Shown here: positions 42,599-58,014 of the stretch, in pieces
Position numbering within the stretch: the stretch's first letter is position 1
Layout of the letters: each line of letters begins with the position of its first letter
Source: Pseudooceanicola lipolyticus
GTDB taxonomy: Bacteria > Pseudomonadota > Alphaproteobacteria > Rhodobacterales > Rhodobacteraceae
Reading direction: 5' to 3'
DNA length: 58,014 bases
Assembly: GCF_002786325.1 (NCBI RefSeq)
Contig: NZ_PGTB01000014.1
Span: 1 to 58,014, forward strand
Program-made: the position numbers and the translations under genes
The notes under the pieces: model-generated
The model's input: only the letters and a program-made list of their open reading frames with translations
What the model was told of the DNA's origin: nothing
The model's database searches: none

Positions 42599-42599
42599 G

Positions 42600-44525
42600 T
42601 CATGTCCTCCGTTGCATGCGCGAAAAAATATCCGGGTGCCGCTCAAGCAGTGCGGCGCGCACGGCCACGGCCGCCGCTTCACCGCTGTCCTTTCCGTAGT
42701 GCCGTTTCGCGACCTGTTCCGTGTTCGCGAGAACCGAGGCCACGGTTGCGAATGCGCCGGGGTTCACGGCCAGCAACAGGGTCGCAAGCGCGTGCCGGCA
42801 CTGATGCGGCGTCAGCCCCAGCCCGAGCTGCCGGTCACCGAGATCCCACAGCTCCAGGATCGATGCGACGGACATGCAGCCACTGGGAAGGTTGAGCGCT
42901 GATTTCCGCAACCGGGGTGCGGCTGCGCCCGGAAACAGGTAGGGCGAGTCATCGAGGCCGCGGAGCTTCATCAGCTTGGGCCGGTCGACTTTGTCCCACT
43001 GCCAGAGCACCCTGGCGTCGTCTCCGAGCACGTTGACGACCAGAGTTTCCCCGTTCTTAACCTCGCCTCCGGAAAACCGGATCTCGGCATGCTCCCGGTC
43101 CGCAATCCATGTCAGATTGCGCGGGCAGCCCGGCGTCGCCCGGCGACGGGTCATGAACAGGTTGGCCGGCCGCAGCGCCCGGCTGACCTGGATCGCGTAG
43201 GCAGCGGCGCAGGCGGAGAGCCGGAGCGCACGATCCTTTGCGAAGTCGGTCGATGCCGCCGCGAGTTCATTGGTCGAGATGTCGCCGAGCCGGGCGGGGG
43301 CGTTCACGAAGGCCGCTGCGAGATGCGGGGACTTTCGCAGACGGTTGCAGATCGCCTCCGCGTCTGCGGTCATTTCGATCGGCGACAACACGTAGTCCGC
43401 ATGGAACAGCCGCACGAGGCGGATCCGCGCGAGGATCTCGGGATCGCGCAGACCGTGCCGCGCGATCGTCGTGAGATTGGTGAACCGAGACCACAGCGTC
43501 GAGCTTTCGTCCGAATCCTTCAGCGTAGGAGACGCCGCGCTCCGCGCAATCTGCGCGGCGCAGGCCGCTTCCAGCGCGTCGGTGGTGAACGCGTCGCGCA
43601 ACGTCCCGAGGCCCGCGAACCCGGTCTCCGGCGCATGGCTCTCGCGCAGGAGCCATGTCGTGGCCTGCCGGTAGCCAGCCAGCGCGGTCTCAATGTTCTT
43701 GGGCAGCTTTTTCTTCTTGTCACCGACGCGCGCGGCAATCTCCGCGTCGATCTCGATGGCCGACCGGCCAAGTCGCATCTGCTCCTTGGCCCATTCTTTC
43801 ATGTCGGCTGGCTGGCGCAGGGTCTGGCGTAACACCTCCTCCGCATCTGCACGGAAATCGGCAGGCAGCGACTTCCAGAGAATGCGGCGCGCCCGGTCGG
43901 AGGCGGCCGGCACGACGAGAGCCTGGCGTGGCAGCAGGTCCGCAAGCTCCGGCCAGCGATTGTGTCCGCGTCGCAGCTCGACAATGCGCTGCGCAAACTT
44001 CCGAAGCGACTTGCGACCATCCGGCGTCGCGTCGAGCCAGAGCCGGTCGAATTCTGCCTGGTCGAGGTCCGGCAGGGCAAGGCGAGCCCGTGCCCGAACC
44101 AGGAGAAACGGCCTGTGGGTGCTGGTGGTGAAAAGCGCGCCGCTGTCGACGAACCCCTCGTTCTCGACGATGAACTTGATGGCCTTGTCGTAGCTCGCGC
44201 GGGCGCCCGTGTCCGGGGTGTCATGTCCGCGCGCCAAAAGAAATCGCTGTAGAGCGGAGCGGACACGGGAATTCCCGCGCTTGCGCGCCGTGTCGAGATT
44301 CTTCGAGCGGGAGACGGCCCCATAGGCGGATACGGCGATCACCTTTTCGAAGTAACCGAGGTCAGCCGGAACGAGATCCAATTCCTCTTCAGTCAGGTCG
44401 AGCCGCGCAGCGACCTTCTCGATCTCATAGACGGTGTCGCGGCTCTCGCCGGTCTCCTTCGCCCAGTCCAGAAAGTCCGGGAACATCGGGGGGGCGGCGT
44501 TGGTCAATGTTCTGTCGTGTTTCAT
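42600..44525 (-). CDS. Large divergent tyrosine-recombinase-like protein
   Basis: This 641-residue protein has a C-terminal part that carries recombinase features: an Arg in SRALRPANLF, a HxxR box in TPHQCRHALATL, and a Tyr in AKRHYGKD. The usual LGH box reads LANT. The N-terminal 350 residues are helical and novel. The ATG at 44525 has GGAG ten bases before it; an in-frame GTG lies upstream. With the 467-residue partner it forms a two-recombinase unit, as in Tn554-like or RIT-like elements, but only two members are seen. Whether it cuts DNA or acts as a helper is unknown. Confidence 0.65.
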   Translation of the reverse strand: MKHDRTLTNAAPPMFPDFLDWAKETGESRDTVYEIEKVAARLDLTEEELDLVPADLGYFEKVIAVSAYGAVSRSKNLDTARKRGNSRVRSALQRFLLARGHDTPDTGARASYDKAIKFIVENEGFVDSGALFTTSTHRPFLLVRARARLALPDLDQAEFDRLWLDATPDGRKSLRKFAQRIVELRRGHNRWPELADLLPRQALVVPAASDRARRILWKSLPADFRADAEEVLRQTLRQPADMKEWAKEQMRLGRSAIEIDAEIAARVGDKKKKLPKNIETALAGYRQATTWLLRESHAPETGFAGLGTLRDAFTTDALEAACAAQIARSAASPTLKDSDESSTLWSRFTNLTTIARHGLRDPEILARIRLVRLFHADYVLSPIEMTADAEAICNRLRKSPHLAAAFVNAPARLGDISTNELAAASTDFAKDRALRLSACAAAYAIQVSRALRPANLFMTRRRATPGCPRNLTWIADREHAEIRFSGGEVKNGETLVVNVLGDDARVLWQWDKVDRPKLMKLRGLDDSPYLFPGAAAPRLRKSALNLPSGCMSVASILELWDLGDRQLGLGLTPHQCRHALATLLLAVNPGAFATVASVLANTEQVAKRHYGKDSGEAAAVAVRAALLERHPDIFSRMQRRT

Positions 44526-44793
44526 CTTTTCGATCTCCACGGTTGGGGCCTCTCGGGCCGCCTTCACGCAGAAAGGCGGCTCGTGCGGCCCAGGCCACGG
44601 ACCTCATTCGGTCCCTTCAGGAGATCGCGCCCGGCGGGGCGTCTCGCACAATCTGTCGTGATTTTCCCGCGTTTTGCAGGATCGCCCCCGAGCATAACAC
44701 CAATTTATGTTCGGGGACGGATGTGCGACGGGCGGCGCCATCCCGCTCGTGTCGGAATGGTCCCGGTCGCACTTGTGCTACGCGGACGCGGTG

Positions 44794-45162
44794 TCATTTC
44801 CACCAGCCGTGAGGAAGATCGACACCCCGCAGCTCCAGCCAATCGGTGGCGTCATGCGGGTTGAAGCGGACCGCCCCGAAGACGTTACGCGTGGGCATCC
44901 CGTCATCGATCCACCGCTCGACGGTGCGAACGCTGACCCGGAGCGCTCCGGCTATGACCTTCTTGCCAAGCAAATTGTCTTGGTAGCGTCGGATCAGCGC
45001 ACGCTTCGGCATCGGTCCGTCTTCGCACGCCCAGACATCCGGCCAAACCATGCGATAGACGCGACCGATGCGGGTCGCTTCGATCTCACCTGCCCGGATC
45101 TTGCGCCGGACCGTGTCCGGTCGCAGGCCGAAATGGTTAGCAACTTCTTCAACTGACAACAT
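44794..45162 (-). CDS. Tandem helix-turn-helix protein (excisionase-like)
   Basis: This 122-residue protein has two MerR/excisionase-type DNA-binding units. The first is SVEEVANHFGLRPDTVRRKI near the N-terminus. The second is VIAGALRVSVRTVERWIDDG near residue 75, followed by VRFNPHDATDWL. Two such units in one small protein are unusual for excisionases, which have one. The ATG at 45162 has GAGGAAAAA before it. It lies upstream of the two recombinase-like genes across a 268-base gap with no clear gene, and divergent from the helicase-type gene. Confidence 0.75.
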   Translation of the reverse strand: MLSVEEVANHFGLRPDTVRRKIRAGEIEATRIGRVYRMVWPDVWACEDGPMPKRALIRRYQDNLLGKKVIAGALRVSVRTVERWIDDGMPTRNVFGAVRFNPHDATDWLELRGVDLPHGWWK

Positions 45163-45238
45163 TTTTTCCTCATCAGGTTGTTCCTGAAAAGGAATTAGTC
45201 CCCGCGTTCGTGGTTCTGAAACGCACGGAGACAACCCC

Positions 45239-45287
45239 AATGGTGTCATGCCTCAATTAGAAGGATCAATTGGGCAGCGACACCATT
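45239..45287. repeat. Nested inverted repeat between divergent HTH and helicase-type genes
   Basis: Outer arms AATGGTGTC (45239-45247) and GACACCATT (45279-45287) enclose inner arms GCCTCAATT and AATTGGGC, which pair with one bulged base. The loop is nine bases, giving about 17 paired positions. The element could be an operator of the tandem-HTH protein, a leader hairpin or a replication/transfer structure. A smaller TTCCTGAAAAGGAA dyad lies at 45181-45194. Confidence 0.6.
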
Positions 45288-45375
45288 GCTGTCGCGCCAG
45301 TCCTCACGCAGCTGTGACCGGACGCATTTCTGCGCGACAACATGGGCGCCCAGTTCCTCCGAAAGGAGGCAGCAG

Positions 45376-47556
45376 ATGAAACACGAAAAGACCCTGGACG
45401 CGATAGGGACTGTCCCAACATGGCACACACCCGCAGACGCGCGCGCCAAGCTCTCCGAGATCATCTGCGGGTTCGTCAAAACGGCCACGTCCGCTCCGGA
45501 AACGTCCGAGGAAGATTGCGCCGTGCTCGCTCTCAAGGTGACGGCCGGTCTTGGCAAGACAGCAACCACGCTTCGCGCGATCGCACGCCATGGGGAGGCG
45601 CTGCTCGCGCGCGGTCACGTGCTCTTCTACGTTCCGACGCTCGATCTCGCGGAGCGGGCCCACAGCGAGTTCTTGAGACTGGCACCCGATATTCCGAGCC
45701 GTGTGATCCGCGGCCGTGAGGCCCTTCGCCCGTACGACAAATCAAAGCAGATGTGCGAAAATGCCGATCTGGCAAAAAAGATTGCCGGATTTGTCCCGTC
45801 CGTGACGCAAGCACTATGTCGCGGAGTGGATGCCGATGAAAATTTCGTCGAGTCGTCCTGCGCATCGGAGTGTCCGTATCTTGCGCAAAAAGATGTCAGC
45901 GGACCGCATGTCGTCTTCCTTTCGCACGCATATCTGACAGTGCGCCCCCCGATCGACGGCGATTTCCCGGTCGTGCTGCGGGTCGTGGATGAAAAGGTCT
46001 GGCCGACCCTGACACGGATATCCCACATTTCCGTCGAGGATTTCATGCGTGCTCCGCCCGCAGGTGTCGAGGAGGAGCTCATCAATGCCCTATCCAGGGC
46101 CAAGGGCCTCGTGGTCGACGGTCTCCAACGAGATCTGCCGCTCTACGAACATCTGCGGCGAGATGGACTCACAACCGACAGCATCAGCCGTCTCGCCGAC
46201 ATGGAGCGCAAGTCGCGGAAGCATCTGGAGCTCAGCCCGGCACAGAATCTGGCGTCGAAGAAATTCCGGGTGTCCACTTTTGATAGCAGAGCTTTCCTGG
46301 CCTCCCGGCGCCGGCAGCGCATCTTTTCGCTGTTGTCAGAAAAGGACGTCGGGCACTGCAACATCCTGCGGCTGGCGGAGACGACCGTCGATGGCGCATC
46401 AAGGCAGTCGATCGAAATATTCACCACCGAGGACGTCCCCCGCGACGCGCCGATGCTGCTGCTCGATGCCGACGCAGACCGGGAGATCACAGAACGGGTT
46501 GTCCCGGGAGCGGAGGTGATCGCCATCGAGTCTCCCCCGGACGCGGACATAGTCCAGATCAAGGACCTTACACTCTCCAACACGTGGATGCTCGACGAAG
46601 AAAAGGGCGCGGGGCGGCGCGCTGCCGTGCTGAAAATAATCAAACGTGAAGTCAGCCGGGCCGCCGGAGCAGGCGTGCTCGTTGTCGCCACGAAAGCGGT
46701 TCTCGGGGCGCTCCATACAGACGCCTCCGGTGTCACTCCTACGGATGAGGCCGGGCTGAAACAACCGCTCCTCGGTGCAGTGCCTCGATGGTTCGGGCCG
46801 CGAACGCAAGGGGTCAACGATTTCGAGGACTTCGCCGCAATCGTCGTGGTAGGTCGCTTGCAGCCCCATATTGCCGATGTGGAAGCTTCCGCTCGTGCAA
46901 TTTTCGGAAAGGATCTCCTTCCTATCGCCTCGCATGACGGTGGTCCCCTCCCGGCGCTGAAATCCTTCCACCTGATGAGCGACGGCTCACATCCTCCTCC
47001 GGCAAGATGCCACACGCACCCCGATCCCCGAGTCCACGCCGTCATTGCGCAGACACGCGAGTGCGGGACGCTCCAGGCGATCGCCAGGCTGCGCCTCGTT
47101 GCCCCGATGCGGAGCAAACGGGTCGTGATTCTGAGCAGCTTGCCTCTGCCAGGCTTTCCGGTCACCCGGCTTGTCGCGTTCAATCAACTCGCCCGCGGAC
47201 TCGAACACGAGCCTGATCCGGCAGGCTTCATCCGGATGGAATCTGCCCTGAGGGCGTTACGTCGGCAGCCTGTTTGCGGCACGCGCCTGTCCGCCGGCGG
47301 ATTGGCCTCTGACCTTCCGCGCGATTTCGAGACGGACGACCAGGCGAAAGGCTTTCGGCGCGGCCGAGCGACCAATCACGTTGTCGCGCTCTGCAGACGT
47401 GTTGCCAAACGGAATGGCTGGCCGCTGACTCTGCTTGCGCTCCGTAAGCCCGGCGGCGGCCATTCCATTCCGGCAGTCGTGCTATCGTCGCCCGAAGACG
47501 CGTTGAAACAGGCAGAGCGGCTATGGCCGGACATGCAAGCATCCTGCGGCACCTGA
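45376..47556 (+). CDS. XPD/DinG-like Fe-S helicase-type ATPase
   Basis: This 726-residue protein has Walker A AGLGKT at 57-62 and a DExx box VVDEKVW near Asp205. Four cysteines lie between these motifs (Cys127, Cys148, Cys162, Cys166, the last two as SCASEC), placed as in the iron-sulfur domain of XPD/DinG helicases. They are followed by FLSHAYLT, like the NHxLL segment of that family. A late QAIARLRLV segment resembles motif VI. DEKV in place of DEAH is unusual. It may unwind DNA for island replication or transfer. AAGGAGG precedes the start. It is followed by a KfrA-like gene. Confidence 0.6.
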   Translation: MKHEKTLDAIGTVPTWHTPADARAKLSEIICGFVKTATSAPETSEEDCAVLALKVTAGLGKTATTLRAIARHGEALLARGHVLFYVPTLDLAERAHSEFLRLAPDIPSRVIRGREALRPYDKSKQMCENADLAKKIAGFVPSVTQALCRGVDADENFVESSCASECPYLAQKDVSGPHVVFLSHAYLTVRPPIDGDFPVVLRVVDEKVWPTLTRISHISVEDFMRAPPAGVEEELINALSRAKGLVVDGLQRDLPLYEHLRRDGLTTDSISRLADMERKSRKHLELSPAQNLASKKFRVSTFDSRAFLASRRRQRIFSLLSEKDVGHCNILRLAETTVDGASRQSIEIFTTEDVPRDAPMLLLDADADREITERVVPGAEVIAIESPPDADIVQIKDLTLSNTWMLDEEKGAGRRAAVLKIIKREVSRAAGAGVLVVATKAVLGALHTDASGVTPTDEAGLKQPLLGAVPRWFGPRTQGVNDFEDFAAIVVVGRLQPHIADVEASARAIFGKDLLPIASHDGGPLPALKSFHLMSDGSHPPPARCHTHPDPRVHAVIAQTRECGTLQAIARLRLVAPMRSKRVVILSSLPLPGFPVTRLVAFNQLARGLEHEPDPAGFIRMESALRALRRQPVCGTRLSAGGLASDLPRDFETDDQAKGFRRGRATNHVVALCRRVAKRNGWPLTLLALRKPGGGHSIPAVVLSSPEDALKQAERLWPDMQASCGT

Positions 47557-47639
47557 AATCCGCCCGAGTTTTTCTTTTTCGACGCGCCCGAAGAACCAAC
47601 ATCCTCTTCAGCCGCCAGCGGCGCCTTTGACAAACACCC

Positions 47640-47660
47640 TTTCGCAAAGTCTTTGCGAAA
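47640..47660 (+). promoter_or_regulatory. Perfect palindrome upstream of the KfrA-like gene (probable operator)
   Basis: TTTCGCAAA-GTC-TTTGCGAAA, a nine-base perfect dyad with a three-base spacer, ends 16 bases before the start codon of the KfrA-like protein. KfrA proteins repress their own gene by binding inverted repeats at its promoter, so autoregulation is the natural reading. Confidence 0.6.
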
Positions 47661-47676
47661 CCAAAGAGGAAAAACA

Positions 47677-48291
47677 ATGACCGAGAAGAAGACCGGCCGC
47701 CCCCCGAAATACACCGAGGCGCAGGTTCTTGAAGGCATCGGGATCGTCGAGGAGAACGGCGACACCCCGACCGGCGAGACTGTGAAGAGAGCGATGTGCG
47801 TCCACCTCGGCGTGCCGCCTGGGATCAACTCTCAGAGCCTCGACAAGGAGGTCCAGCGGCTTCTCGATGAGCGGGAACGTCAGCAATCCGCGCGTCTGAT
47901 CGTGGCCTTGCCTGAAACAAGCCGAAATGCAGTCCGAGAGATCAGCCGAACCGTGGAGTCTGCGATCTTGCTTCATCTGGGCCGCGAACATGGTGAACTC
48001 CGTCGTATCAACGAACAGAAGGTCACGCAGAAGGACATGGATCTGGCGCACCAGCGTGCGCAAATCCGCGAGCTACTGATGAAACTCGATCAACAGGCGG
48101 AAGAGGTTGCCGCGCTCGAAGAAGCGGCGCGAGCCATGCAAGACCAACTCCTTCAGTCGCAGGAGCGGAATTCGGCCCTGTTGACACGCATAACAGAGTT
48201 CGAAAAACGTCAGGACTTCAGGGAGGAAATGTTCGCGTTTATGAAGGAGACGCTTGCTCAGCATGCTCCTCATCTGCCCGAGAAGGAATAG
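47677..48291 (+). CDS. KfrA-like DNA-binding coiled-coil protein
   Basis: This 204-residue protein has an N-terminal KfrA-type DNA-binding domain (GRPPKYTEAQVLEGIGIVEE through about residue 70) and a long coiled coil (about 110-185, Gln/Glu/Leu-rich). KfrA proteins act in plasmid maintenance and transcription control. Here it suggests that the island has a plasmid-like stability function. A perfect palindrome upstream supports autoregulation. AGAGGAAAAAC precedes the start. It is convergent with the defence block. Confidence 0.8.
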   Translation: MTEKKTGRPPKYTEAQVLEGIGIVEENGDTPTGETVKRAMCVHLGVPPGINSQSLDKEVQRLLDERERQQSARLIVALPETSRNAVREISRTVESAILLHLGREHGELRRINEQKVTQKDMDLAHQRAQIRELLMKLDQQAEEVAALEEAARAMQDQLLQSQERNSALLTRITEFEKRQDFREEMFAFMKETLAQHAPHLPEKE

Positions 48292-48382
48292 GCGAAGCCA
48301 ATTCTGCTGCTATCCGACACAATGGTCAAATCAAGGGGGCCGGCTTGGCAGAAATCCCATCCGCCAGACCGGTCAATGGCAA

Positions 48383-50404
48383 TCAGACAAGGTCTTCAAG
48401 GAATTCCGAGACGCGGCCCGCACCGGAAACCCACAAACGCTCTCTGGCCCGAGTGGTGGCGACATATAGAAGATGGCGTTCCGTCGCCATGATTTCCTCG
48501 ATCATCGCCTCGTCTCTTGCTTCGAGGAGGCGATCCTCCTTGGGGATTACATCTTCGTCACATGCCATGACTGCCACGGCGCGATATTCGGATCCCTTCG
48601 CATCGTGCATGACGCGAACTTCCGGTCCTTCGTTCAGGCCAGATAGCGATCGGAAGGTGTCCCGGACGGCCTTGGCACGTGGAAGCTCGTCCTCGCTGCG
48701 AACCAAGAGTGCAACCTCCCGCTCTGTGAAACCCTCATGAGCCAAGCCGGCGAGCCAACCGGCGACAGCCTTGATCTCTGCATCAGCATCCGGGAATTCG
48801 GCGATTTCCGGTGCCGGGCCGTCGAAAAGCGACACGACACCGGTGCGCCGATCCTCGTTGCCGTCCGCCTCAGTCAAGCTTGGGGGCAGCAGGCGGTCGG
48901 ACTGGATTCGGATCTGTTGCGACGTCCGATAGTTGACCTTTAGGCTGCGCGATCGTCCCCGCACGTCCACTCCGGCAGCCTTCCACGGGAATGGCGCACG
49001 AAAGATCCGCTGGCCGATGTCACCGGCGAAGAACAAACCGTTCGGCAGGTCTCCGGCAATGGCCGACAGGAAATGCAATTCCGGCACAGAAATGTCTTGT
49101 GCCTCGTCCACCACCGCATGGGTAAACGGCCGCCGCGCGCCTGCACGATAATGTACCGCGAGAGCGTGGAGCATCTGGGCGCGGGTTCGCTTGCCCTGCC
49201 CCTCCAAAGCGGCGCGCGCATCGGAGAAGACGTCCCACAGCGCATCCCGGCGCGACGCCGCCATGCGCGTGAGTCGACCCAGGCGCGGCAGATCTCGGTA
49301 TGCATCGCGGTCGGCCACCGCCCAGGCATCCACGACGAGACGCCATTCGTCCTGCAGGAAGCCAGGGTCCACGCTCACCTCTGCCGCTGCGGCGGCGTCG
49401 GCCAGTGCCTTGGCGACATCATCGGACGCTGCCTCCTCGACCGGGCCGAAGGCCTCGACGTAAAAATCGTGTGCCAGTTCCCCCAACGCGCGGGTCGTGA
49501 CACGGTCTCGAACTGCCGTGTCCGGCAGCAGCATGGGCAGCTTGGCCGAAAGCCCATCGGCGAGCCGCCGGTTGAACGTGGTGAGCAAGATGCGCGCCTC
49601 GGCATCTTCTCGGGCCAGCCGGGCCGCCCTGTGCAAAGCAACGACCGTCTTGCCGGTCCCGGCCGAGCCGATCACTCGGGCCGGACCGTTGAAGTCCCGG
49701 TCCACGAATTCTTTCTGCGCCGGGTGCAGCCAGACAGCCCATCTCTCCCAAGGCGCCTCGAGCGCGGCGGCCAGATCGGCCTCGGTGGTCGTGAGGCGGA
49801 AGCGACGCACGGCGTCGGGATGTTCGTAGGGATCCTCGGCGTGCGGCGCGGGCGCAGGCCGCTCGCCGGTGGCTGCCTGCAACAATGCCTCGCCCGCCTC
49901 CGCCGGAAGGTGGCTGGCGATGTCCAGCACCGTATCCTCGGTGGCATCGCGCACCGTTTCGATCCAATCCTCGGGTACGCCCCAGGACAGCAGCGTGTCA
50001 TCGTCCTCGTCGGCGAAGAGACGAGGTTTCTTCACGGCCTCCTCGACGTAGCGCTGGATGATAACGTCTTCGACGGTCTCACGGATTTCGACGATCTGCG
50101 CCGCCCCCGTTCTCGGATGCACGTCGATCCGGCGCCGCTCGGCCCAGCGGTAGGCGTCATCATGGTGGCCGACCCACGCAAGTAGCGTGGCGCCGTCCTT
50201 CTTGTGCAGGACAAGCCGGACATCGCGATTCACCCGCGCGGTCCAGAAATGCGGGTCCTTGGCCCGGTCGACGCGGTGCATTTGGAGGCCCGGGTTGTCG
50301 GGGTTCATCTGCGCGTCGAAGGCCGCGGTCTTCGCGGCCCTTTGCTCCTGACCGGATAGCTTGGTGAGCGCGTCGGAGAAGGTGTCGGCGATGCGGAAGG
50401 TCAT
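48383..50404 (-). CDS. RelE-like domain fused to UvrD/Rep-type SF1 helicase
   Basis: This 673-residue protein begins with a RelE/ParE-fold-like domain (residues 1-92; VNRDVRLVLHKKDG and WVGHHDDAYRWAERR are typical of RelE toxins). A linker follows, then an SF1A helicase: Q-motif WLHPAQKEFV at 225-234, Walker A GSAGTGKT at 246-253, DEAQ at 433-436, then GDIGQRI, VNYRTSQQIR and the VATTRARERL motif VI. The 1B/2B insertions are short. The start overlaps the upstream small gene by four bases (ATGA). It is the last gene of a co-directional type III restriction block, which suggests a defence or DNA-processing role. Whether the RelE part is toxic or only binds RNA or ribosomes is unknown. Confidence 0.85.
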   Translation of the reverse strand: MTFRIADTFSDALTKLSGQEQRAAKTAAFDAQMNPDNPGLQMHRVDRAKDPHFWTARVNRDVRLVLHKKDGATLLAWVGHHDDAYRWAERRRIDVHPRTGAAQIVEIRETVEDVIIQRYVEEAVKKPRLFADEDDDTLLSWGVPEDWIETVRDATEDTVLDIASHLPAEAGEALLQAATGERPAPAPHAEDPYEHPDAVRRFRLTTTEADLAAALEAPWERWAVWLHPAQKEFVDRDFNGPARVIGSAGTGKTVVALHRAARLAREDAEARILLTTFNRRLADGLSAKLPMLLPDTAVRDRVTTRALGELAHDFYVEAFGPVEEAASDDVAKALADAAAAAEVSVDPGFLQDEWRLVVDAWAVADRDAYRDLPRLGRLTRMAASRRDALWDVFSDARAALEGQGKRTRAQMLHALAVHYRAGARRPFTHAVVDEAQDISVPELHFLSAIAGDLPNGLFFAGDIGQRIFRAPFPWKAAGVDVRGRSRSLKVNYRTSQQIRIQSDRLLPPSLTEADGNEDRRTGVVSLFDGPAPEIAEFPDADAEIKAVAGWLAGLAHEGFTEREVALLVRSEDELPRAKAVRDTFRSLSGLNEGPEVRVMHDAKGSEYRAVAVMACDEDVIPKEDRLLEARDEAMIEEIMATERHLLYVATTRARERLWVSGAGRVSEFLEDLV

Positions 50405-50748
50405 GTATCCCTGCGTTCCTTCATGGCCTTGACGAAGTTGACGTATGCTTCGCGGCGCTTCTCTTCTTTATTTTGCAACCGGGCACGTCCACGTTCCACC
50501 GACGCTTGCCGGGATCGAAAAACCTTCTGCATCACTTTCTGACGATCCTCGACTGACAACACGTGCAAACCCGGCGCGTCATCGCCAAACGCCGCCTTTT
50601 TCTTTTTCTGTTTAGCTCCAGGTTTCACCCCTGACCGACGGTCGTCTATGACGTCTTCGATCCGATCACTTCTTTCTCTCGGAGAGCTCTTCGAGCCTTT
50701 TCCGGCGCGGAACACTGTAGAACCGCCGCGATAACCTCCACCGCTCAT
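50401..50748 (-). CDS. Small basic protein of the restriction block
   Basis: This 115-residue, strongly basic protein starts MSGGGYRGGSTVFRAGKG. It contains a Lys-rich patch (KQKKKKAAFG) and a C-terminal charged helix rich in Arg, Lys and Glu. No domain is recognised. It starts three bases after the mod stop and overlaps the helicase gene start (ATGA), so it is translated between them. It may bind nucleic acid or link Mod to the helicase; that is inference. Confidence 0.7.
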   Translation of the reverse strand: MSGGGYRGGSTVFRAGKGSKSSPRERSDRIEDVIDDRRSGVKPGAKQKKKKAAFGDDAPGLHVLSVEDRQKVMQKVFRSRQASVERGRARLQNKEEKRREAYVNFVKAMKERRDT

Positions 50749-50751
50749 GTC

Positions 50752-53649
50752 CTACACCCCTATCACCTTCATCACCTCGTCTCCGAGGTGGTTAATTACC
50801 TTGACCGCGATCCGTCCGGATTTCGGCCGCGCGAAGGCGCGGGACTCGGTCCGTTTCAGGCTCTCCCAAGCTTCTTCGTCGATCTCGGCCTTCAGCGTTG
50901 TTTTGAGCTGCTTGTAAGGGATCTCCGCCCCCGGGAAATACGCGTGGCGAACGAAGAAGCTCTGCTCGTCGTAATCCGTGTCGATGAACCAACAGGCGAT
51001 CTCATCGGGGTCGGAGGATGACACCTCGCCGGTGGCGGGGCGGAAGATGTCGACGCCCAGAAGGCGCACGCGCAGCCGGTCGCCCTCTTCCACGATCTCG
51101 ATGTCGGGCTCGCCGAAGACCACGAAGAGGTTGCCTCCACCCGCCTTCAGGTCTCCCGCCATGTGCAGGTCGGCGTTCATGCGGGCCTGCAGGACGGTGA
51201 TGCGGCCAAGCTTCTGGAACTCGGCCGTATGGGCGTCGAAGTTGAAGGCGCAGGCGATCACCAAGTCGAACCCGGCATCCGCCGCCTCGCGCGCGGCCGC
51301 CACGAGGTCGGCGCGCTGGAGGGTGCCGTATTCTGGGCCGATGAGGATGCCGGCGCGACGTTCGGTCTCGCCCTCCATGTAGCGGCCCTCCGCGGCGAGC
51401 CATTCGCCGGGCCAGGCGGAGAGCGAGGTGAAATCGATGCGGTCCTCGCGCCCGGCCTGCTGCACCCCGGCTTTGGCGAGATTTTCAAGGATCGCGGTGC
51501 GGTAGTTCTCGGCCTCCTGCTCTCCTGCTCCGCGCTTGCCACTGGCGGCGTCATGCTCGTCGATCAGCTCGCCGTGTTCGTTGACCGCCTGGGTGCGGTG
51601 GGGCGACAGGCTCTCGACGGTGAAGGGCCCGGCGACGCGGACGCGCTTCTTGTCCTCGTAGGGCTTGTCGTAAAGGTATTCGTGATCGGCCTTGGCGGCG
51701 ATGCTGGCATCGATCTCCTTCTGGCGGGCGATGCGGGCCTCCCAGAACGCGTGCAACGCCGTCTTGGCCGCGTCGGGCCAGCCCTCGGGCGCATCACGGG
51801 GGATCTCCCACTCCATGAAGCCGTTCGCCGGGGCCATCTCTCCGCTGGGCAATTCGACCTCGCCGGAGGCGGTGAAGTCGATCTTCTCACCCTTGCGGCC
51901 GCCGGTTTCGACCTCGAAGGGCGCGGGATGGCCCTGCAGGGCGGCGTTGAGCGCGGCACGGGCTTCTTCGACGGCGGGCTGCAGCGCCTCCCAGATCGTG
52001 TCGATCTCGGTGTTGTTGGCGATGCTTTTCAGCGTGATGTGCGGCACGCGCTGGTAGACGAAGCCGTGGCGGATGTCGTTGTAGGTTTCAGCGGTCGAGG
52101 GGCTTCGCCGCGTGACCTCGGCCTCCTTCCTCTGACCCTCGGCGGAGTCCTTGAGCAGATACCAGGGGTATTTTGCGCCCATGATCCGCGCGCGGGCGAG
52201 CGCGAGGGCCACGCGGGAGGTGTCGATGGTGATCCAGCGCCGCCCCCATTGCTCGGCCACATAGGCGGTGGTGCCGGAGCCGCAGGTGGGATCGAGCACG
52301 AGGTCGCCGGGATCGGTGGTCATGAGTAGGCAACGTTGGACGATTGTTGAGCTTGTCTGCACAACATAAGTCATGTCTGAAGCGCCGCGAGTATCTGTCC
52401 AGACGTTCATCATTGGAGTGTATGGAAAATCGTCAAAGAAGCGTTTGTAAATTCTAAGGCCTTCTTGCTGCTGCAGGCGCCCGATCTTCCAGAGCTTTTT
52501 GGTGCCTTCAACGCCAACTGACCAATGCCGACGTGATCCACATTTTAGAGTGAAATCCTTACCAAAAGCGGACACCGGAATGTCTGCAGAACCTCCCTCA
52601 CTTCCGCCAGCGGAGACTATCGGGCCAGTTGCATAAACCCGTGCACCTTCCGGCAAACGGTCATTGTTAAAGAGCTCTTCGTCGGTGATGTTCCATGGCC
52701 TCTTTATCAATCCCGGCAACTCGACATATCGGTGTTCGACTGAACCTTCGCCGCCGAGCTTTTTCTCAGTGTATGGCTGCCGGAACTTGAGGAATTTCTT
52801 GTTCTTCCCATAATGCAGAATGAAATCGGACGCGGAAGGCAAATAGTTCGTTTTTGTTTGCCCGCTGGTCTTTGAAAAGGAAATCTGCGCAGCAAAATTG
52901 TCCTCCCCAAACACCTCATCCATCAGCGCCCGCACCCTGTGGACGTTCTCGTCTCCGATCTGGACGAAGCACGACCCGCTCTCGGTCAGCAGTTCGCGCG
53001 CCACCACCAGACGGTCGCGCAGGTATTGCAGGTAGGAATGGATGCCGTCGCGCCAGGTGTCGCGAAAGGCCTTCACCTGCTCGGGCTCGCGGGTCAGATG
53101 CTCCAGCTTGCCGTCCTTCACATCGCGCGACGTGGTGGACCACTGGAAGTTGGAGTTGAACTTGATGCCATAGGGCGGGTCGATGTAGATCGCCTGCACC
53201 TGCCCCTTGAGCCCTTCGCGTTCCGCGAGGCTCGCCATGACCTGCAACCCGTCGCCCAGGATCATCCGGTTCGACCACTTGCGGTGGTGGCGGTAGAACT
53301 CGATCTCCGCCTCGCGGTCGTCGTCGGTGATGCCGAAATGATCGAAGAGGTCCGCGCCGCCGCCCTCGCCGTTGCGCTGGCCCCCCGCCCTCAGGTCCTC
53401 GATGATCGCCTTTGGGTGGACCTGTTCCTGTAGGTAGATCGGCGGCGCGTCGACGGTGATCTCGGTCTGGTCGATGTCCTTGCCGCGCCAGATCAGCTGC
53501 GGGTCGAGATCGGGGTTGCGCTGTGCGTAGGCGACCTTGATCGGCCGGGCATCGTCCGGGTCCATCATGGGGGCGAGTTCCGGCGTGGGGATGTTCACGC
53601 GCTGGTCGTCGTGGGTGATGGGGTCGATCTGGGTTTTCTTGTCGGTCAT
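50752..53649 (-). CDS. Type III restriction-modification Mod: site-specific DNA methyltransferase
   Basis: This 965-residue beta-class N6-adenine methyltransferase has motif IV IDPPYGIKF at 157-160 (DPPY) and motif I VLDPTCGSGTT near residue 450, the order expected for type III Mod. Between them (about 246-442) lies the target-recognition region. Its coding sequence (about 52323-52910) is visibly AT-richer and uses different codons from the rest. A long C-terminal extension follows. The start overlaps the DUF4268 gene by four bases (ATGA), and the small basic gene follows after three bases. It would set the site methylated and, with Res, the site cut. Confidence 0.93.
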   Translation of the reverse strand: MTDKKTQIDPITHDDQRVNIPTPELAPMMDPDDARPIKVAYAQRNPDLDPQLIWRGKDIDQTEITVDAPPIYLQEQVHPKAIIEDLRAGGQRNGEGGGADLFDHFGITDDDREAEIEFYRHHRKWSNRMILGDGLQVMASLAEREGLKGQVQAIYIDPPYGIKFNSNFQWSTTSRDVKDGKLEHLTREPEQVKAFRDTWRDGIHSYLQYLRDRLVVARELLTESGSCFVQIGDENVHRVRALMDEVFGEDNFAAQISFSKTSGQTKTNYLPSASDFILHYGKNKKFLKFRQPYTEKKLGGEGSVEHRYVELPGLIKRPWNITDEELFNNDRLPEGARVYATGPIVSAGGSEGGSADIPVSAFGKDFTLKCGSRRHWSVGVEGTKKLWKIGRLQQQEGLRIYKRFFDDFPYTPMMNVWTDTRGASDMTYVVQTSSTIVQRCLLMTTDPGDLVLDPTCGSGTTAYVAEQWGRRWITIDTSRVALALARARIMGAKYPWYLLKDSAEGQRKEAEVTRRSPSTAETYNDIRHGFVYQRVPHITLKSIANNTEIDTIWEALQPAVEEARAALNAALQGHPAPFEVETGGRKGEKIDFTASGEVELPSGEMAPANGFMEWEIPRDAPEGWPDAAKTALHAFWEARIARQKEIDASIAAKADHEYLYDKPYEDKKRVRVAGPFTVESLSPHRTQAVNEHGELIDEHDAASGKRGAGEQEAENYRTAILENLAKAGVQQAGREDRIDFTSLSAWPGEWLAAEGRYMEGETERRAGILIGPEYGTLQRADLVAAAREAADAGFDLVIACAFNFDAHTAEFQKLGRITVLQARMNADLHMAGDLKAGGGNLFVVFGEPDIEIVEEGDRLRVRLLGVDIFRPATGEVSSSDPDEIACWFIDTDYDEQSFFVRHAYFPGAEIPYKQLKTTLKAEIDEEAWESLKRTESRAFARPKSGRIAVKVINHLGDEVMKVIGV

Positions 53650-54572
53650 TGCTCTGCCTCGATGGCTTCCGAGATCGCCGCGACGTAGAGCTTTCGACGC
53701 TCTTCCATCCAGTCGATGATCTCGGGCCAGTTGCTTTCGTCTTGGTAGGATTTCGGGAGGCGTTCCCCGAACAGGTGCCCGTTGGGCTCCGGGTTATATG
53801 TGTCGAACCCGAGTTTCCGCGCCAGGATGTCGGCGTGTCGACCAAGCCGATCCGCCGCCGAGTGCTTGCGTTCTCCCCATCCGCCCCGGACGTAGATGCC
53901 GGCGGTTTTTTCGCCGATCCAGACCGATATCAGGACATCGCCATCGGCAAGTCGAGTATATCTGTTCCAGCCGCGTTGGACCTTGATACCTTCGGCTTCG
54001 GCCTCGGGGTGGCGTTCGAGGTATCGGGTCCAGAACGCAGTTCTCACGTCGCTGAACGCATCCTTTCCGGTCTCTGCATCCTTCCGGGTCTGGGTCAGTG
54101 ACCGTTCCCATGCAGATGGCTTTTCAATCACCTCGAAGATTGGCGCGTAGGGGCTGTCGCCGATGCGGACGACGCGGGCCTTGATCGCGAAGAATGAGAA
54201 GCCGTCCGAGGTGTGTTCGTTCAGCCAGCGAATTGCAGAAAGGTGAGGTTCGCGGAACGCGGGCGCGATCCAAATGACGGTCTGCGCCTCGAGCCCCGCA
54301 AGGTATGTCATGATCTGGCCGAGATGGGTGTGATCCGTCTGCTCCAGCTGGTTCTCAATCAGGACGACGTTGCCGTCGAGGTCACGGGCGAGAATGTCGG
54401 CCGAGAAGGTCTCGACAGCGACCTCGGTGCCGGTCAGCTCCAGTTGGACACCGATGGCCTCGGAGAGGTGTTCGATGTTCTCCGCAAGCCACGGAGTGAA
54501 CTGGAGAGCTTCATGCTTCCAGGCTTCGCGCAGAGGCAGGTCTTCGAGGCGGCCGAACTTGATATCCGTCAT
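53646..54572 (-). CDS. DUF4268 protein with PD-(D/E)XK nuclease-like core
   Basis: This 308-residue protein has an N-terminal half with the layout of a PD-(D/E)XK nuclease: Asp59 in SADILARD, then LIENQLEQTDHTHLGQ with Glu73 and Gln75 in an E-x-Q form, followed by YLAGLEAQTVIWIAP. The C-terminal half is the DUF4268 domain. Both ends overlap its neighbours by ATGA (res before it, mod after it), so it is an integral, translationally coupled member of the locus. A guiding or auxiliary nuclease role is likely but unproven. Confidence 0.82.
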   Translation of the reverse strand: MTDIKFGRLEDLPLREAWKHEALQFTPWLAENIEHLSEAIGVQLELTGTEVAVETFSADILARDLDGNVVLIENQLEQTDHTHLGQIMTYLAGLEAQTVIWIAPAFREPHLSAIRWLNEHTSDGFSFFAIKARVVRIGDSPYAPIFEVIEKPSAWERSLTQTRKDAETGKDAFSDVRTAFWTRYLERHPEAEAEGIKVQRGWNRYTRLADGDVLISVWIGEKTAGIYVRGGWGERKHSAADRLGRHADILARKLGFDTYNPEPNGHLFGERLPKSYQDESNWPEIIDWMEERRKLYVAAISEAIEAEQ

Positions 54573-57500
54573 GCAGGCACTCCGACGGTCTCTCCGATCA
54601 GCCGGTCGAGATCCTCGGCGTAGCTGTAGGGGTCGAGGAGCTCGGCATAGGCCCAGCGACCGTAGCGGCCCAGCGTGTTGACGCCGGGCACCCACTGGTG
54701 TCGCGTGGTCTCGGCCTTCAGCCGGTCCTTGGCATCGCGGAAGCCCTTGGCCTCGATGATCAGGGTGGTGGGTTCGGGTGTGTCCAGCGCGACCAGGAAA
54801 TCGGGGCGGTAGTGTTTGGGCTCGCCCTCCACGAGGTAGGGAATCTCGAAGCCGAGGTTATGGTTCTTGGCATAGGCCCGGGTCATCGGGTGGTCCTCGA
54901 TGACCTTCGCCAGTTTCGCCTCCCAATCGCTGTCGGTGACGATCCAGTTGATGTGCGACCGGTCGGGGCGTGGCCAGAAGCGCGTGGCCTTGGAGGTGTT
55001 GAAGGACACATCCATGGTCGACCCGCTGGGGCTATAGGGCTCCAGAACGGCGCGAATTATGGCATCGCCCTCGCGACCGACCGTGAGGGCGTGAAGGATC
55101 GTATCGCAGACCTCGTCGGCGATCTGCTTGTAGGTCAGCTGCGCCTTCTGGGTGCCACCGGTGAGGATCAGGCGGTCACTGTCGAGCCATTGGCGCACGA
55201 TGCGCTTGGCGCGCGGGAAGAGGTGGGTCTTCGGCGCCTCGCCCGCGTCGCGGAGCTTGTGCATGACGAGATGCGAGGCGATCTTGGTGGCGATCTCGGA
55301 CGGGCGCATCTGCCCGAGATGCGCGAGGGTGATATGGGCCGGCTCGCCCACGATGCCCTGCATGGTGACCTCGGTCGCTCCGGCCTTGGCCGGCGTCAGC
55401 TCGTAGGGTTCGACCCTGGAGAAATCGACGGCAAGCCTGTCGTTGGGCAGGTCCGTCCGGTAGCCCTCGACCCGCGGGAAGACGATCTCGAGGTGGTCGC
55501 GCTCGGGCGAGACGGCACGCACCTGCACGACCTCGCGCGGCGGCGTGGGTGGCGCGACGCGGGGGCCGTCAGAGAAGTTGAGCCCGTCGATGCCCATGAT
55601 GTCGGCGTATTCGGTGGTGAAGAGCCCCTCTTCGTTCACATCGTAGGACAGGCGGCGCAGGGCGCGCCCGACGACCTGTTCGCAGATGAGCCGCGTGCCG
55701 AAGGCGCGCAGGCCCAGGATGTGGGTGACGTTGTTGGCGTCCCAGCCTTCGGTCAACATCGAGACGGAGACAACGCAGCGCACCTGTTCGCCGAGCTTGC
55801 CCTTCTTGCCGACGGTGTTCATCACCTCGCGCAGGATCTCGGACTCGTCGATCTGGTCCGCGCCTTCGCCGCGCGCGGCCTTTTCCCGGCGAAATGCCTC
55901 GATCTCGGCGGCATGGGCCTCGCGGAAGCCCTTGTCGACCTCGCCGCCGGATTCGATGGCCGAGCTGTCGATCAGGATCGTGCGCGGCCGGTCGAGCCGC
56001 TCGCCGTCGTCGGCATGGTTGCGAAACAGCGCGCAGCGGCCCTGAACGGTGTCGATCACACCATTCTCGTCCTCGCGTTCGAACCCGGCAATGTAATCCC
56101 GGACCAGTTCGGAATTCGTGGTGTTGTTGCAGACCACGATGAAGACCGGAGGAATGCCGACCTCGGCTTTTTCCCATTCCCGGTAGGTCTTCTCGTAGTG
56201 GCCGTAGAGCGCGTCGATGGCGGTCTGCAGTTCCAGAGGCAGCTTCAGAGGGTCAGGCTTCTTCTCGCCGCGCGCCTTCTTCGGCATCTTCTTCCCGATG
56301 GCCTTCCAGAGGTTGCGATAGAGCGGTTCCGGCTGGCCTGCGACGTTGTCGGAGACCGGGACTCGAGGCAGCTTCACGATCCCGCATTCGATGGCATCCA
56401 TGAGGGAGAAGTCGCTGGCCACCCAGGGAAAGAGCGTGCCCTCCACCCAACCGGAACCGGACAGGAAGAAGGGTGTCGCGGACAGATCATAGACAGTCCG
56501 GATGCCCAGATGGCGCTTGGCCGCCTCGAGGCCCGAGATCCAGAGCCTCGCCGCTTCGCTGTTTTCCTCCGCCTCTTTCCTCGCGTCTCCGGTCAACTTC
56601 TCCTGATCCGCGTCAGGACGTTCCCGATAGCAGTGATGCGCCTCGTCGTTGATCACCGTGATCGGGCCGGAGGACATCAGTTCGGGCATCACGCGGGCGA
56701 GCATCTGCCCTTCGGTTTCGAGCGTCCGCGGACCCTCTCCATGGCCGGACAGCGCGGCCCGTGTGCCCTTGGCCAGGGTCACCTTCTCGCGGAGCTTGAA
56801 GGCATGATAATTCGTGATGACGATCTTGGCAGTCTGCATGTCCGTCATCAGATCGGACGGAACAAGATTCAGCCGGCCATAGTAGTTGTCCGGCTCCGAC
56901 GGCTTGAGAACACGCAAGCGGTCACGGATCGTGATGCCCGGCGCGACGATCAGGAAGCCCTTCCCGAAGCTCTTCGACGAGGGTGAGCGCGCGGCATTGA
57001 GAACCTGCCAGGCCATCAGCATGGCCATGACCGTGGTCTTGCCTGCCCCGGTCGCGAGTTTGAGCGCGATGCGGAACAGGTCCGGATTGGCCGCCGCATT
57101 CGACGCCTTCAGCCATTCGAGGAAGCGCTTGCCGCGCTTGCCGTCCTTCGGGGCCACTTCGGATAGCCAGATCGCGACCTCTACCGCTTCAAGCTGACAG
57201 AAAAAGGGCCGGATCGGAACGGTCTCGTCCGCCTGAATCGCCCGCCAATGCTGCAAGAGCCTCTGGGTGACGGGAGAAACGCGCCATTGCGCCGGGTTGG
57301 GCAGGTTGCGCCACGTGTCGACGGCATCCCGCAATTCGTTGATGTAGGGTGTCGGGTTGTAATCCACGTCCCCCGTCGACAGGTCATCGAAAGTCAGGCT
57401 CGTCTGTTTGCCGGCCTTCGCCTTCGCTCCCGGCATGGCCGAAATCAGATCTGACTTTCTTCGCCGCTCGATGATGCGGTCGGTCGGACGACCATCCTTG

Positions 57501-57574
57501 TCCAATTCCCAATTCCGCTCCGGAACGCGGTAGGGCGAATTCAGAATTGGGGCGTCGAAAAAGCTCTGCGACAT
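54569..57574 (-). CDS. Type III restriction-modification Res: DEAD/DEAH helicase-endonuclease
   Basis: This 1001-residue SF2 helicase has Walker A LATGAGKTT (about 173-181), NDEAHHC (DEAH at 310-313), and the DLSATPF motif III near 363-369. Motif VI lies in EQVVGRALRR. At the C-terminus a PD-(D/E)XK nuclease domain shows YRPDFLV (Asp925) and LIIEAKG (Glu941, Lys943). The chosen ATG at 57574 has GGAGT seven bases before it. It heads the res-DUF4268-mod-basic-helicase block. All catalytic motifs look intact, so the enzyme is probably active. Confidence 0.93.
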   Translation of the reverse strand: MSQSFFDAPILNSPYRVPERNWELDKDGRPTDRIIERRRKSDLISAMPGAKAKAGKQTSLTFDDLSTGDVDYNPTPYINELRDAVDTWRNLPNPAQWRVSPVTQRLLQHWRAIQADETVPIRPFFCQLEAVEVAIWLSEVAPKDGKRGKRFLEWLKASNAAANPDLFRIALKLATGAGKTTVMAMLMAWQVLNAARSPSSKSFGKGFLIVAPGITIRDRLRVLKPSEPDNYYGRLNLVPSDLMTDMQTAKIVITNYHAFKLREKVTLAKGTRAALSGHGEGPRTLETEGQMLARVMPELMSSGPITVINDEAHHCYRERPDADQEKLTGDARKEAEENSEAARLWISGLEAAKRHLGIRTVYDLSATPFFLSGSGWVEGTLFPWVASDFSLMDAIECGIVKLPRVPVSDNVAGQPEPLYRNLWKAIGKKMPKKARGEKKPDPLKLPLELQTAIDALYGHYEKTYREWEKAEVGIPPVFIVVCNNTTNSELVRDYIAGFEREDENGVIDTVQGRCALFRNHADDGERLDRPRTILIDSSAIESGGEVDKGFREAHAAEIEAFRREKAARGEGADQIDESEILREVMNTVGKKGKLGEQVRCVVSVSMLTEGWDANNVTHILGLRAFGTRLICEQVVGRALRRLSYDVNEEGLFTTEYADIMGIDGLNFSDGPRVAPPTPPREVVQVRAVSPERDHLEIVFPRVEGYRTDLPNDRLAVDFSRVEPYELTPAKAGATEVTMQGIVGEPAHITLAHLGQMRPSEIATKIASHLVMHKLRDAGEAPKTHLFPRAKRIVRQWLDSDRLILTGGTQKAQLTYKQIADEVCDTILHALTVGREGDAIIRAVLEPYSPSGSTMDVSFNTSKATRFWPRPDRSHINWIVTDSDWEAKLAKVIEDHPMTRAYAKNHNLGFEIPYLVEGEPKHYRPDFLVALDTPEPTTLIIEAKGFRDAKDRLKAETTRHQWVPGVNTLGRYGRWAYAELLDPYSYAEDLDRLIGETVGVPA

Positions 57575-57597
57575 CAATGGACTCCTATTCAGAATTG
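57539..57597. repeat. Direct repeat of a short dyad around the res start
   Basis: ATTCAGAATTG occurs at 57539-57549 and 57587-57597. Each copy contains the dyad ATTC-A-GAAT. The two copies flank the res start codon and may be an operator pair. The repeat is short and may be chance. Confidence 0.3.
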
Positions 57598-57655
57598 CAC
57601 ACTATCAGCGTAATCAGGCGGGGGAAGGAAAAGGTCTCTGTCATCAGCAACCAAC

Positions 57656-58014
57656 TCACTCCATTTCAACGACATGCAGGTCAGGAATCACCTCGCGCCC
57701 CAAGTCGACGAGGTGGCGGTGATGGGTGAACATTATCGCCTGTCCGGTCCGCCCCATCTCTGCGGTCAGAGACAGGGCTGCGGCCGCGCGGGTGTCGTCG
57801 AAAGTTTCCAGGATGTCGTCGGTCAGGAACGGAAGCGCCCCGAAGCGGGCGGTAAAATCGGCATGGCCGGCCACCCGCAGTGCAAGGTAGAGCTGGCCGC
57901 GCGTGCCGGTGGACATGGCCTCGGCAGCGACCGGCTGGCCGTTGCGGATGCCGACGAGCCGCTCGCCCGCCCCCGTCGGCTGCGCCTCCAACCGCGGCCA
58001 TTCCCCGCCGGTCA
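57656..58014 (-). CDS. YhaN-like SMC-type AAA ATPase, C-terminal part (5' end beyond window)
   Basis: The frame is open to the right edge, and about 119 C-terminal residues are visible. An ABC-type signature lies in AMSTGTRGQLYLALR, Walker B in LPFLTDDILETFDD, and the H-loop in IMFTHHRHLVDL. This is the C-terminal nucleotide-binding lobe of YhaN-like large ATPases, relatives of SbcC/Rad50 that usually pair with a metallophosphoesterase nuclease encoded next to them. It lies 81 bases upstream of res on the same strand and may be part of the same defence block. Confidence 0.82.
   Translation of the reverse strand, partial: TGGEWPRLEAQPTGAGERLVGIRNGQPVAAEAMSTGTRGQLYLALRVAGHADFTARFGALPFLTDDILETFDDTRAAAALSLTAEMGRTGQAIMFTHHRHLVDLGREVIPDLHVVEME

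Follow-up and report, generated by a model that had tools for sequence, protein, structure and literature searches.

Which genes of a compact, tightly coupled locus form one defence system, and which are guests in it? We have addressed this question for five genes of Pseudooceanicola lipolyticus that lie on the minus strand of a window of 58,014 nucleotides, the whole stretch of DNA that was analysed (contig NZ_PGTB01000014.1): Res, a PDC-S11 gene, Mod, a gene for a small basic protein and a UvrD-type helicase gene (Table 1). An earlier note on this DNA had taken all five as a single composite anti-phage system. We favour a different reading, to which we give a probability of roughly 0.58 on the basis of sequence comparison: the locus would be a type III-like restriction-modification (R-M) operon with a third core gene, the helicase, and with two cargo slots, slot 1 between Res and Mod and slot 2 between Mod and the helicase gene. 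Comparison of related loci shows, at the level of sequence, that Res, Mod and the YoeB/RelE-headed helicase, here called the chassis, stay and diverge together, and that the slots and the recognition region of Mod change independently of them. The coupling of the five genes that the note had described was confirmed by reading the junctions directly: ATGA overlaps join Res to gene 2, gene 2 to Mod and the basic gene to the helicase gene, and three bases separate the Mod stop from the ATG of the basic gene. The Res start was set from the sequence at the ATG at 57574, which is preceded by AGGAG, and appears as a TTG at 57577 in the program-made list of open reading frames.

Table 1. Features of the locus, in positions of the window
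Feature	Positions	Strand	Basis
Res, type III-like restriction subunit, BPTD_3080 family, chassis gene 1	54569..57574	-	NF046055, ResIII
Slot-1 cargo PDC-S11 (DUF4268-like)	53646..54572	-	PADLOC match; N-terminal EndoMS/NucS-like nuclease domain
Mod, type III-like beta-class amino-methyltransferase, chassis gene 2	50752..53649	-	PADLOC MTase_III, PDB relatives
Putative swappable recognition-domain region of Mod, about residues 256-438	52336..52884	-	Function suggested by position and variability
Slot-2 cargo, orphan basic protein, 115 amino acids (aa)	50401..50748	-	No family match
YoeB/RelE-like head and UvrD-type superfamily 1 (SF1) helicase (ArmD-like), chassis gene 3	48383..50404	-	UvrD domains, predicted fold, linkage
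YoeB/RelE-like N-terminal domain of the helicase gene, residues 1-110	50075..50404	-	YoeB profile alignment, conserved residues

The first two chassis genes have the features of type III subunits. Res belongs to the BPTD_3080 family (NCBIfam NF046055, 1193.8 bits for a cut-off of 800), whose name we take to be a locus tag of Bordetella pertussis; a literature search for BPTD_3080 found no paper. It carries the ResIII domain of Pfam and joins superfamily 2 (SF2) helicase motifs to a C-terminal PD-(D/E)XK nuclease motif (PDF..IIEAKG), the combination expected of a type III Res. In the locus alignment the G, G, K and T of Walker A are each conserved in 90/90 proteins, and the nuclease letters P, D and E each in 94/94 and K in 92/94. 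The PADLOC type III Res models matched the window Res weakly (21.6 bits), and a sequence search of the PDB with Res returned no relative. Mod matches PADLOC MTase_III at 1132.8 bits and Pfam N6_N4_Mtase, the top PDB chains in a sequence search with it include two type III Mods, 6k0w and 4zcf (EcoP15I), and its motifs DPPY and DPTCGSGTT, with DPPYG conserved in 98/98, stand in the beta-class order of a type III Mod. The two-gene mod/res organisation does not hold in this subgroup, where a third gene accompanies Res and Mod; we treat the operon as a type III variant and not as an exclusion from the type, because Murray et al. 2021 count three-gene systems as type III. In the accessible part of that report, some N4-methylcytosine (m4C) type III systems have a third, conserved helicase-like ATPase gene, found in more than 500 genomes, and Bpe564I is an m4C type III system of B. 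pertussis (PMC8259958).

Is the helicase gene a chance neighbour of these two genes? Loci were gathered from genomes with Res over the cut-off (27/398 of a phylum, 22/385 of a class and 28/395 of a family sample, which overlap), from plasmid records, from 80 named loci found with a helicase profile and from 34 contigs of a viral collection. The exact order of Res, PDC-S11, Mod, one gene and helicase recurs in seven further loci (L075, L141, L143, L156, L160, L189 and L197) among 118 distinct loci, so that the arrangement is not peculiar to one strain. The 80 named loci rank highest among at least 452 relatives, and since the ranking used a profile made from R-M loci they favour linkage; within them Mod lies upstream of the helicase in 72, the other eight having less than 1.8 kb of upstream sequence, and where at least 9 kb is available (51 loci) Mod is present on the same strand in 51/51 and Res in 47/51. 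The helicase is thus a constant third gene, and the earlier claim of a unit larger than two-gene type III holds to that extent. The phylum sample is a less biased test: a strong helicase was found in 19 of its 398 genomes (18 above 900 bits, with G175 added for its broken copy), and Res is also present in 18 of the 19 (Fisher p 1.3e-23). Among 61 relatives searched, six have the helicase and five of the six have Res, the sixth being G420. In the viral collection, where some contigs are loci already in the set (L299 is as long as G849:C40), Mod lies upstream in 22/26 strong helicase matches and in 0/8 weak ones; three of the four strong matches without it (L294, L296, L301) have less than 0.9 kb of upstream sequence, and the fourth, L300, has 5.5 kb.

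Complete Res-Mod-helicase sets occur, by record title, in Acidobacteria (L166), Planctomycetota (L184), Clostridiales (L172), Chryseolinea (L195), Acidimicrobiales (L198), Chloroflexi (L214), Desulfobulbaceae (L171) and many Pseudomonadota. That five unrelated genes lie together here by ordinary defence-island clustering is therefore very improbable. Defence genes do cluster, and tyrosine-recombinase-like genes, recognised by eye, adjoin the locus; against this, the same chassis order is kept in eight broad bacterial groups (many of these loci being metagenome-assembled genomes), chassis genes co-diverge and slot borders are gene-precise, as described below. The conserved order alone already speaks against such clustering for the three chassis genes, and for the cargo genes it may still apply.

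A further 19 loci have the order Mod-Res, with a Res about 31-35% identical, and no helicase was found in the stretches examined; the two genes are at most 124 bases apart in 17 of the 19 and about 1.5 kb apart in L095 and L131. This group serves as a comparison and not as a matched control, because it represents a different Res branch. A third arrangement, Mod-Res with a convergent helicase, was seen in L087 (Tistrella). Two single loci may be added: in L068 (G175) an internal stop in Res and a split helicase mark a decaying copy of the operon, and in L314, a plasmid of Sphingomonas aliaeris, Res, a DUF3883 gene, an unannotated Mod, a 119-aa gene and the helicase follow one another in the same order.

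The chassis genes also share their history. Across 69 distinct loci (2346 pairs), Spearman coefficients were 0.89 for Res and helicase, 0.91 for Res and Mod outside the recognition region and 0.87 for helicase and Mod, while Res and the recognition region showed no correlation (0.06). In every listed distinct pair with a chassis identity of at least 82%, the recognition region is 20-48% identical and the rest of Mod 75-98%. Conversely, recognition regions 78-83% identical were found in chassis only 53-71% identical, without homologous slots. The recognition region and the slots thus move separately from the chassis, given the lack of correlation with Res and the like regions in divergent chassis, and these comparisons show a recognition region that, to judge from the sequences, has been swapped independently of it. 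One such pair is L218/L231, with recognition regions 83% identical, chassis 71% identical and non-homologous slots.

What the slots hold turns over even between close relatives. Slots were compared in 118 distinct loci, of which 77 have the complete chassis, after removal of six duplicates (L138, L217, L194, L157, L159, L175); the counts leave aside the Mod-Res loci and L087, slot genes below 75 aa and slot-2 gaps of 9 kb or more, and the locus set omits some Res-positive genomes (short or cut contigs; G065, G539). In 80 distinct pairs from 51 loci with a chassis identity of 80-99%, slot 1 is homologous in 11/53 and slot 2 in 4/38 doubly occupied pairs (12/58 and 4/41 with duplicates kept). 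Slot 1 is occupied in 67/98 distinct loci and slot 2 in 77/100, the rest (31 and 23) having no gene of at least 75 aa. Between the window and its closest relatives, identity is high throughout the chassis apart from the recognition region of Mod, and drops sharply in slot 1, in that region and in slot 2. Thus L143, with a chassis about 92% identical in DNA, carries an unrelated slot-2 gene, a replaced recognition region and a PDC-S11 whose C-terminal half has been exchanged; in L142 an NYN-domain gene takes the place of PDC-S11 in slot 1. The positions of the DUF4268-like and basic genes hold other genes, or none, in relatives, and the idea that all five genes make up one composite system found no support.

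The exchange is gene-precise. In a base-by-base comparison of five closely related operons, the swapped segment runs from the stop of a chassis gene to the start of the following one. An ATGA closes Res and opens Mod and the helicase gene irrespective of slot content, so that translation of cargo can be coupled to that of the chassis; by eye, no short repeats were noticed at the slot borders of these five operons. The non-redundant slot genes, 85 from slot 1 and 136 from slot 2 (221 in total, to which the window's own do not belong), fall into 39 and 99 clusters. Homologous pairs number 183 within slot 1, 67 within slot 2 and only five across slots, and because cross-slot pairs are so few each slot tends to have its own gene pool. 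Bro-N/PDC-S13-type genes of slot 1 are 75-84% identical in chassis only 53-71% identical (L062, L136, L188, L213, L230), which suggests, as far as sequence identity can indicate it, that such genes have recently passed from operon to operon with their slot position kept. Genome G1086 of the family sample and plasmid p6 of Gemmobacter fulvus have identical Res, Mod and slot proteins.

Could the slot genes instead be true R-M subunits, nucleases or specificity helpers that have diversified and are replaced with the recognition region? Slots and recognition region do both differ in most close pairs, and the start/stop coupling is kept. Nevertheless this seems improbable to us, since 31/98 and 23/100 distinct loci have no gene of at least 75 aa in slot 1 and slot 2, the cargo families are unrelated to one another, and some cargo resembles described systems or their components (IetA with subtilase, SIR2, PIN with VapB, HepT). 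Moreover, the 11 listed pairs with recognition regions more than 50% identical (up to 83%, in L218/L231) include no homologous slots, several of their slots being empty or not visible.

The 86 slot-1 proteins, the window's included, gave NYN (9), Bro-N (7), PIN (6), GmrSD_N (4), HepT (3) and others in Pfam, and PDC-S11 (13), NYN (9), PDC-S13 (7), HEC-06 (4) and HEC-05 (4) in PADLOC; among the first 25 families listed for the 137 slot-2 proteins, out of 84 in Pfam and 600 in PADLOC, are SIR2_2 (4), HNH_2 (4), subtilase (3), SNF2 (3), IetA (3) and DrmD (3). The named families are largely nuclease-, toxin- or defence-like, and several slot proteins scanned singly gave no family match. With its constant chassis and gene-precise swaps, the operon looks, from its sequences, like a reusable carrier for changing anti-phage weapons. 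In the window, gene 2 matches PADLOC PDC-S11 over its full length (311.8 bits; residues 1-305 to model positions 1-313 of 318) and Pfam DUF4268 below threshold (E 0.013). The nuclease fold proposed for it is supported by fold comparison, which places an EndoMS/NucS-like domain (D59..E73-N74-Q75) at the N-terminus, before a hypervariable C-terminal domain. PDC systems are described as unvalidated candidates in the portion of their source that was available. The basic protein has no family in Pfam, PADLOC or NCBIfam and no relative in genome contigs (by pattern scan), plasmids or the compared loci, and gave one weak, stop-broken match in 198 family genomes. We considered whether it might be a conserved partner of the RelE-like head, or its antitoxin, and rejected this: the window and L143 have helicases 95% identical but non-homologous slot-2 proteins, so that basic protein and head do not co-vary. 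The L143 slot-2 protein looks GIY-YIG-like by eye, and that of L002, the locus on G. fulvus plasmid p6, belongs to another cluster and has a sub-threshold GIY-YIG match (E 0.015).

What, then, is the third chassis gene? It has the UvrD-helicase and UvrD_C domains of Pfam, and its predicted structure (predicted local distance difference test, pLDDT, 84.4; predicted template modelling score, pTM, 0.70) finds UvrD 4c30 as best Foldseek match (E 8.8e-19). Its head aligns with E. coli YoeB by hhalign (probability 82%, E 1.1e-5) over only 31 columns; profile alignments with RelE, YafQ and the antitoxin DinJ gave no match, nor did Pfam, and PDB searches by sequence or profile gave no meaningful one. 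In the locus alignment R57 is conserved in 102/103 heads and R63 and H81 in 104/104; in remote relatives R63, H81, D82, A84, Y85 and W87 are present in 8/8 and R57 and H80 in 7/8. We read R57, R63 and H81 in the light of the catalytic roles that YoeB residues presumably have. The best PADLOC family of the helicase is GajB, a weak partial match (61.6 bits); the likeness to Gabija is confined to GajB, the YoeB-like head is not a Gabija feature, and no GajA was found among the nine window proteins scanned.

The closest described parallel is ArmD, the RelE-headed UvrD helicase of ARMADA type II, to which we liken the window helicase by the architecture given in the excerpts of that work. Its partners in ARMADA II are a YprA-like ArmC, a BrxHII-like ArmA and a PglX-like ArmB, whereas the window helicase goes with a type III-like Res and Mod; no YprA-like, BrxHII-like or PglX-like gene is present among the nine scanned window proteins, the contig ending 0.4 kb upstream of Res. 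Remote helicase relatives (about 31-38% identity) adjoin DruE/YprA-like genes on an E. coli IncY plasmid (L242) and an Allomeiothermus plasmid (L243). Our analysis thus presents the window helicase as an ArmD-like protein, by predicted architecture and neighbourhood, in a different, type III-like system. A role in repair or self-protection, against breaks made by Res in the host chromosome and with no direct part in defence, we hold to be unlikely: the UvrD/PcrA fold would suit it, and unmethylated host DNA can be damaged by a restriction enzyme. It is opposed by the YoeB-like head, which has no obvious place in repair, and by the similar ArmD: in the available part of the ARMADA report, deletion of any of the four genes ArmA-D, and likewise a change in the Walker A motif of ArmD, abolishes protection against phage (PMC12458937). 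Two plasmids are of interest in themselves. L243 also carries DrmD/BrxHII-like and DrmMI/type IIG-like genes and so has an ARMADA II-like gene set in a host other than E. coli, and L273, from Qipengyuania, has a strong-clade RelE-UvrD gene (975 bits) adjoining DUF4011 and TM0106-like nuclease genes.

Several points weigh against the reading of a three-gene chassis with exchangeable cargo. Many of the named loci are metagenome-assembled genomes and several duplicate loci of the genome samples, helicase scoring in the phylum sample covered two candidates per genome, gene calls were automatic, and the locus pairs of the co-divergence test are not independent. Helicases without Res were met in G004, at a contig edge, and in G420, where the 3' half lies near a contig start at 50% identity and no Res was found at 1e-100; plasmid L273 has the helicase without Res or Mod, and viral contig L300 has it with 5.5 kb upstream and no Mod. 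Nine Res genomes of the phylum sample have no strong helicase match: two (G253 and G123) have the Mod-Res arrangement, four (G185, G117, G157 and G189) have Res on a short or truncated contig, although a genome-wide search found no helicase elsewhere, and G125, G105 and G065 lack an explanation. The RelE identity of the head is based on one profile match, conserved residues and secondary structure, and the link to ArmD on described architecture and gene neighbourhood.

Type III R-M, a third ATPase gene in it, RelE-UvrD fusions in ARMADA, embedded defence genes and PDC-S11 are already known. EcoP15I-like and m4C type III systems share with the window the Mod and Res families and the DPPY, Walker and PD-(D/E)XK motifs; here, in contrast, Res precedes Mod, there are two slots, and the further gene is a 3' SF1 UvrD gene with a YoeB-like head, while the third protein of Murray et al. 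2021 has, in the accessible part of the text, SF2 helicase motifs and a gene 5' of mod (PMC8259958). Embedded defence genes ('guilt-by-embedding') are likewise reported, in the excerpts available, for PrrC within a type IC locus (PMC12707154) and for DarTG2 between hsdS and hsdR (PMC12255303), and the slot-1 PDC-S11 is itself a catalogued embedded candidate; unlike in those cases, the cargo here sits in a type III-like operon in which the helicase gene is constant and the two slots are fixed in place. A literature search in which subscription papers and preprints were thinly covered found no RelE-UvrD gene in type III operons and no two-slot organisation. In combining a constant ArmD-like third gene with two fixed slots, the operon appears to be a variant of type III R-M that is new.

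We propose that in this operon Mod would mark host sites, and Res, directed by Mod, would translocate on and cut unmarked phage DNA. The helicase may be loaded on the resulting ends or on stalled complexes, unwind the DNA and complete its destruction. Its YoeB-like head might cut mRNA, or test nucleic acid, only when the helicase is engaged; this conditional RNase or sensor role is the weakest step of the mechanism and is inferred. The slot genes could form a second line against phages that escape restriction, and PDC-S11 would be a NucS-like nuclease in which target sensing probably falls to the variable C-terminal domain. More tentatively, and with a probability somewhat below even, the operons may represent a widespread three-component type III-like class in which the ArmD-like, YoeB-headed helicase is an obligate effector shared with ARMADA-type immunity, and which acts as a cartridge holder, two gene-precise slots and a swappable recognition region changing target and secondary weapon in an otherwise constant machine. 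A constant third gene is here named for a large group of type III-like systems and is related to an essential component of ARMADA, so that what RelE-headed helicases do can be put to the test in a simple operon. The slots, for their part, provide a ready list of candidate defence genes, with 39 clusters in slot 1 and 99 in slot 2, each inside a restriction operon.

It remains to consider the surroundings of the operon. The earlier note had placed the end of an ATPase gene 81 bases upstream of Res, and this stands (stop at 57656, Res ATG at 57574) for what is a 118-aa C-terminal piece only, cut at the contig end 0.4 kb upstream of Res. Pfam, PADLOC and NCBIfam name no family for it, and relatives on 224 plasmid records are annotated 'AAA family ATPase'. 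The suggestion that a YhaN-like gene may add an SbcCD-like end-processing arm did not survive comparison, in which the gene is not a conserved neighbour: among 314 loci the C-terminal piece matches only the window's own stretches, in a test that would miss a gene whose C-terminus lies outside a stretch, and we rejected such an arm as part of the unit for want of recurrence. The Sphingomonas plasmid L314 has a YhaN/exonuclease pair about 4 kb upstream of Res, one case of proximity. On the other side, the opposite strand downstream (45286-48291) holds a KfrA-like gene, seen by eye and without a family match, and a ResIII-like helicase gene (E 7e-5). Two tyrosine-recombinase-like genes, identified by eye, and an excisionase-like helix-turn-helix gene (TIGR01764) adjoin the operon at 41195-44567 and 44794-45249. 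L143 shares this flank, with 95.8% identity over 42008-44204 and 89.5% over 46995-48400; the two blocks are adjacent there, so that about 2.8 kb (44204-46995) is missing from L143 or inserted in the window.

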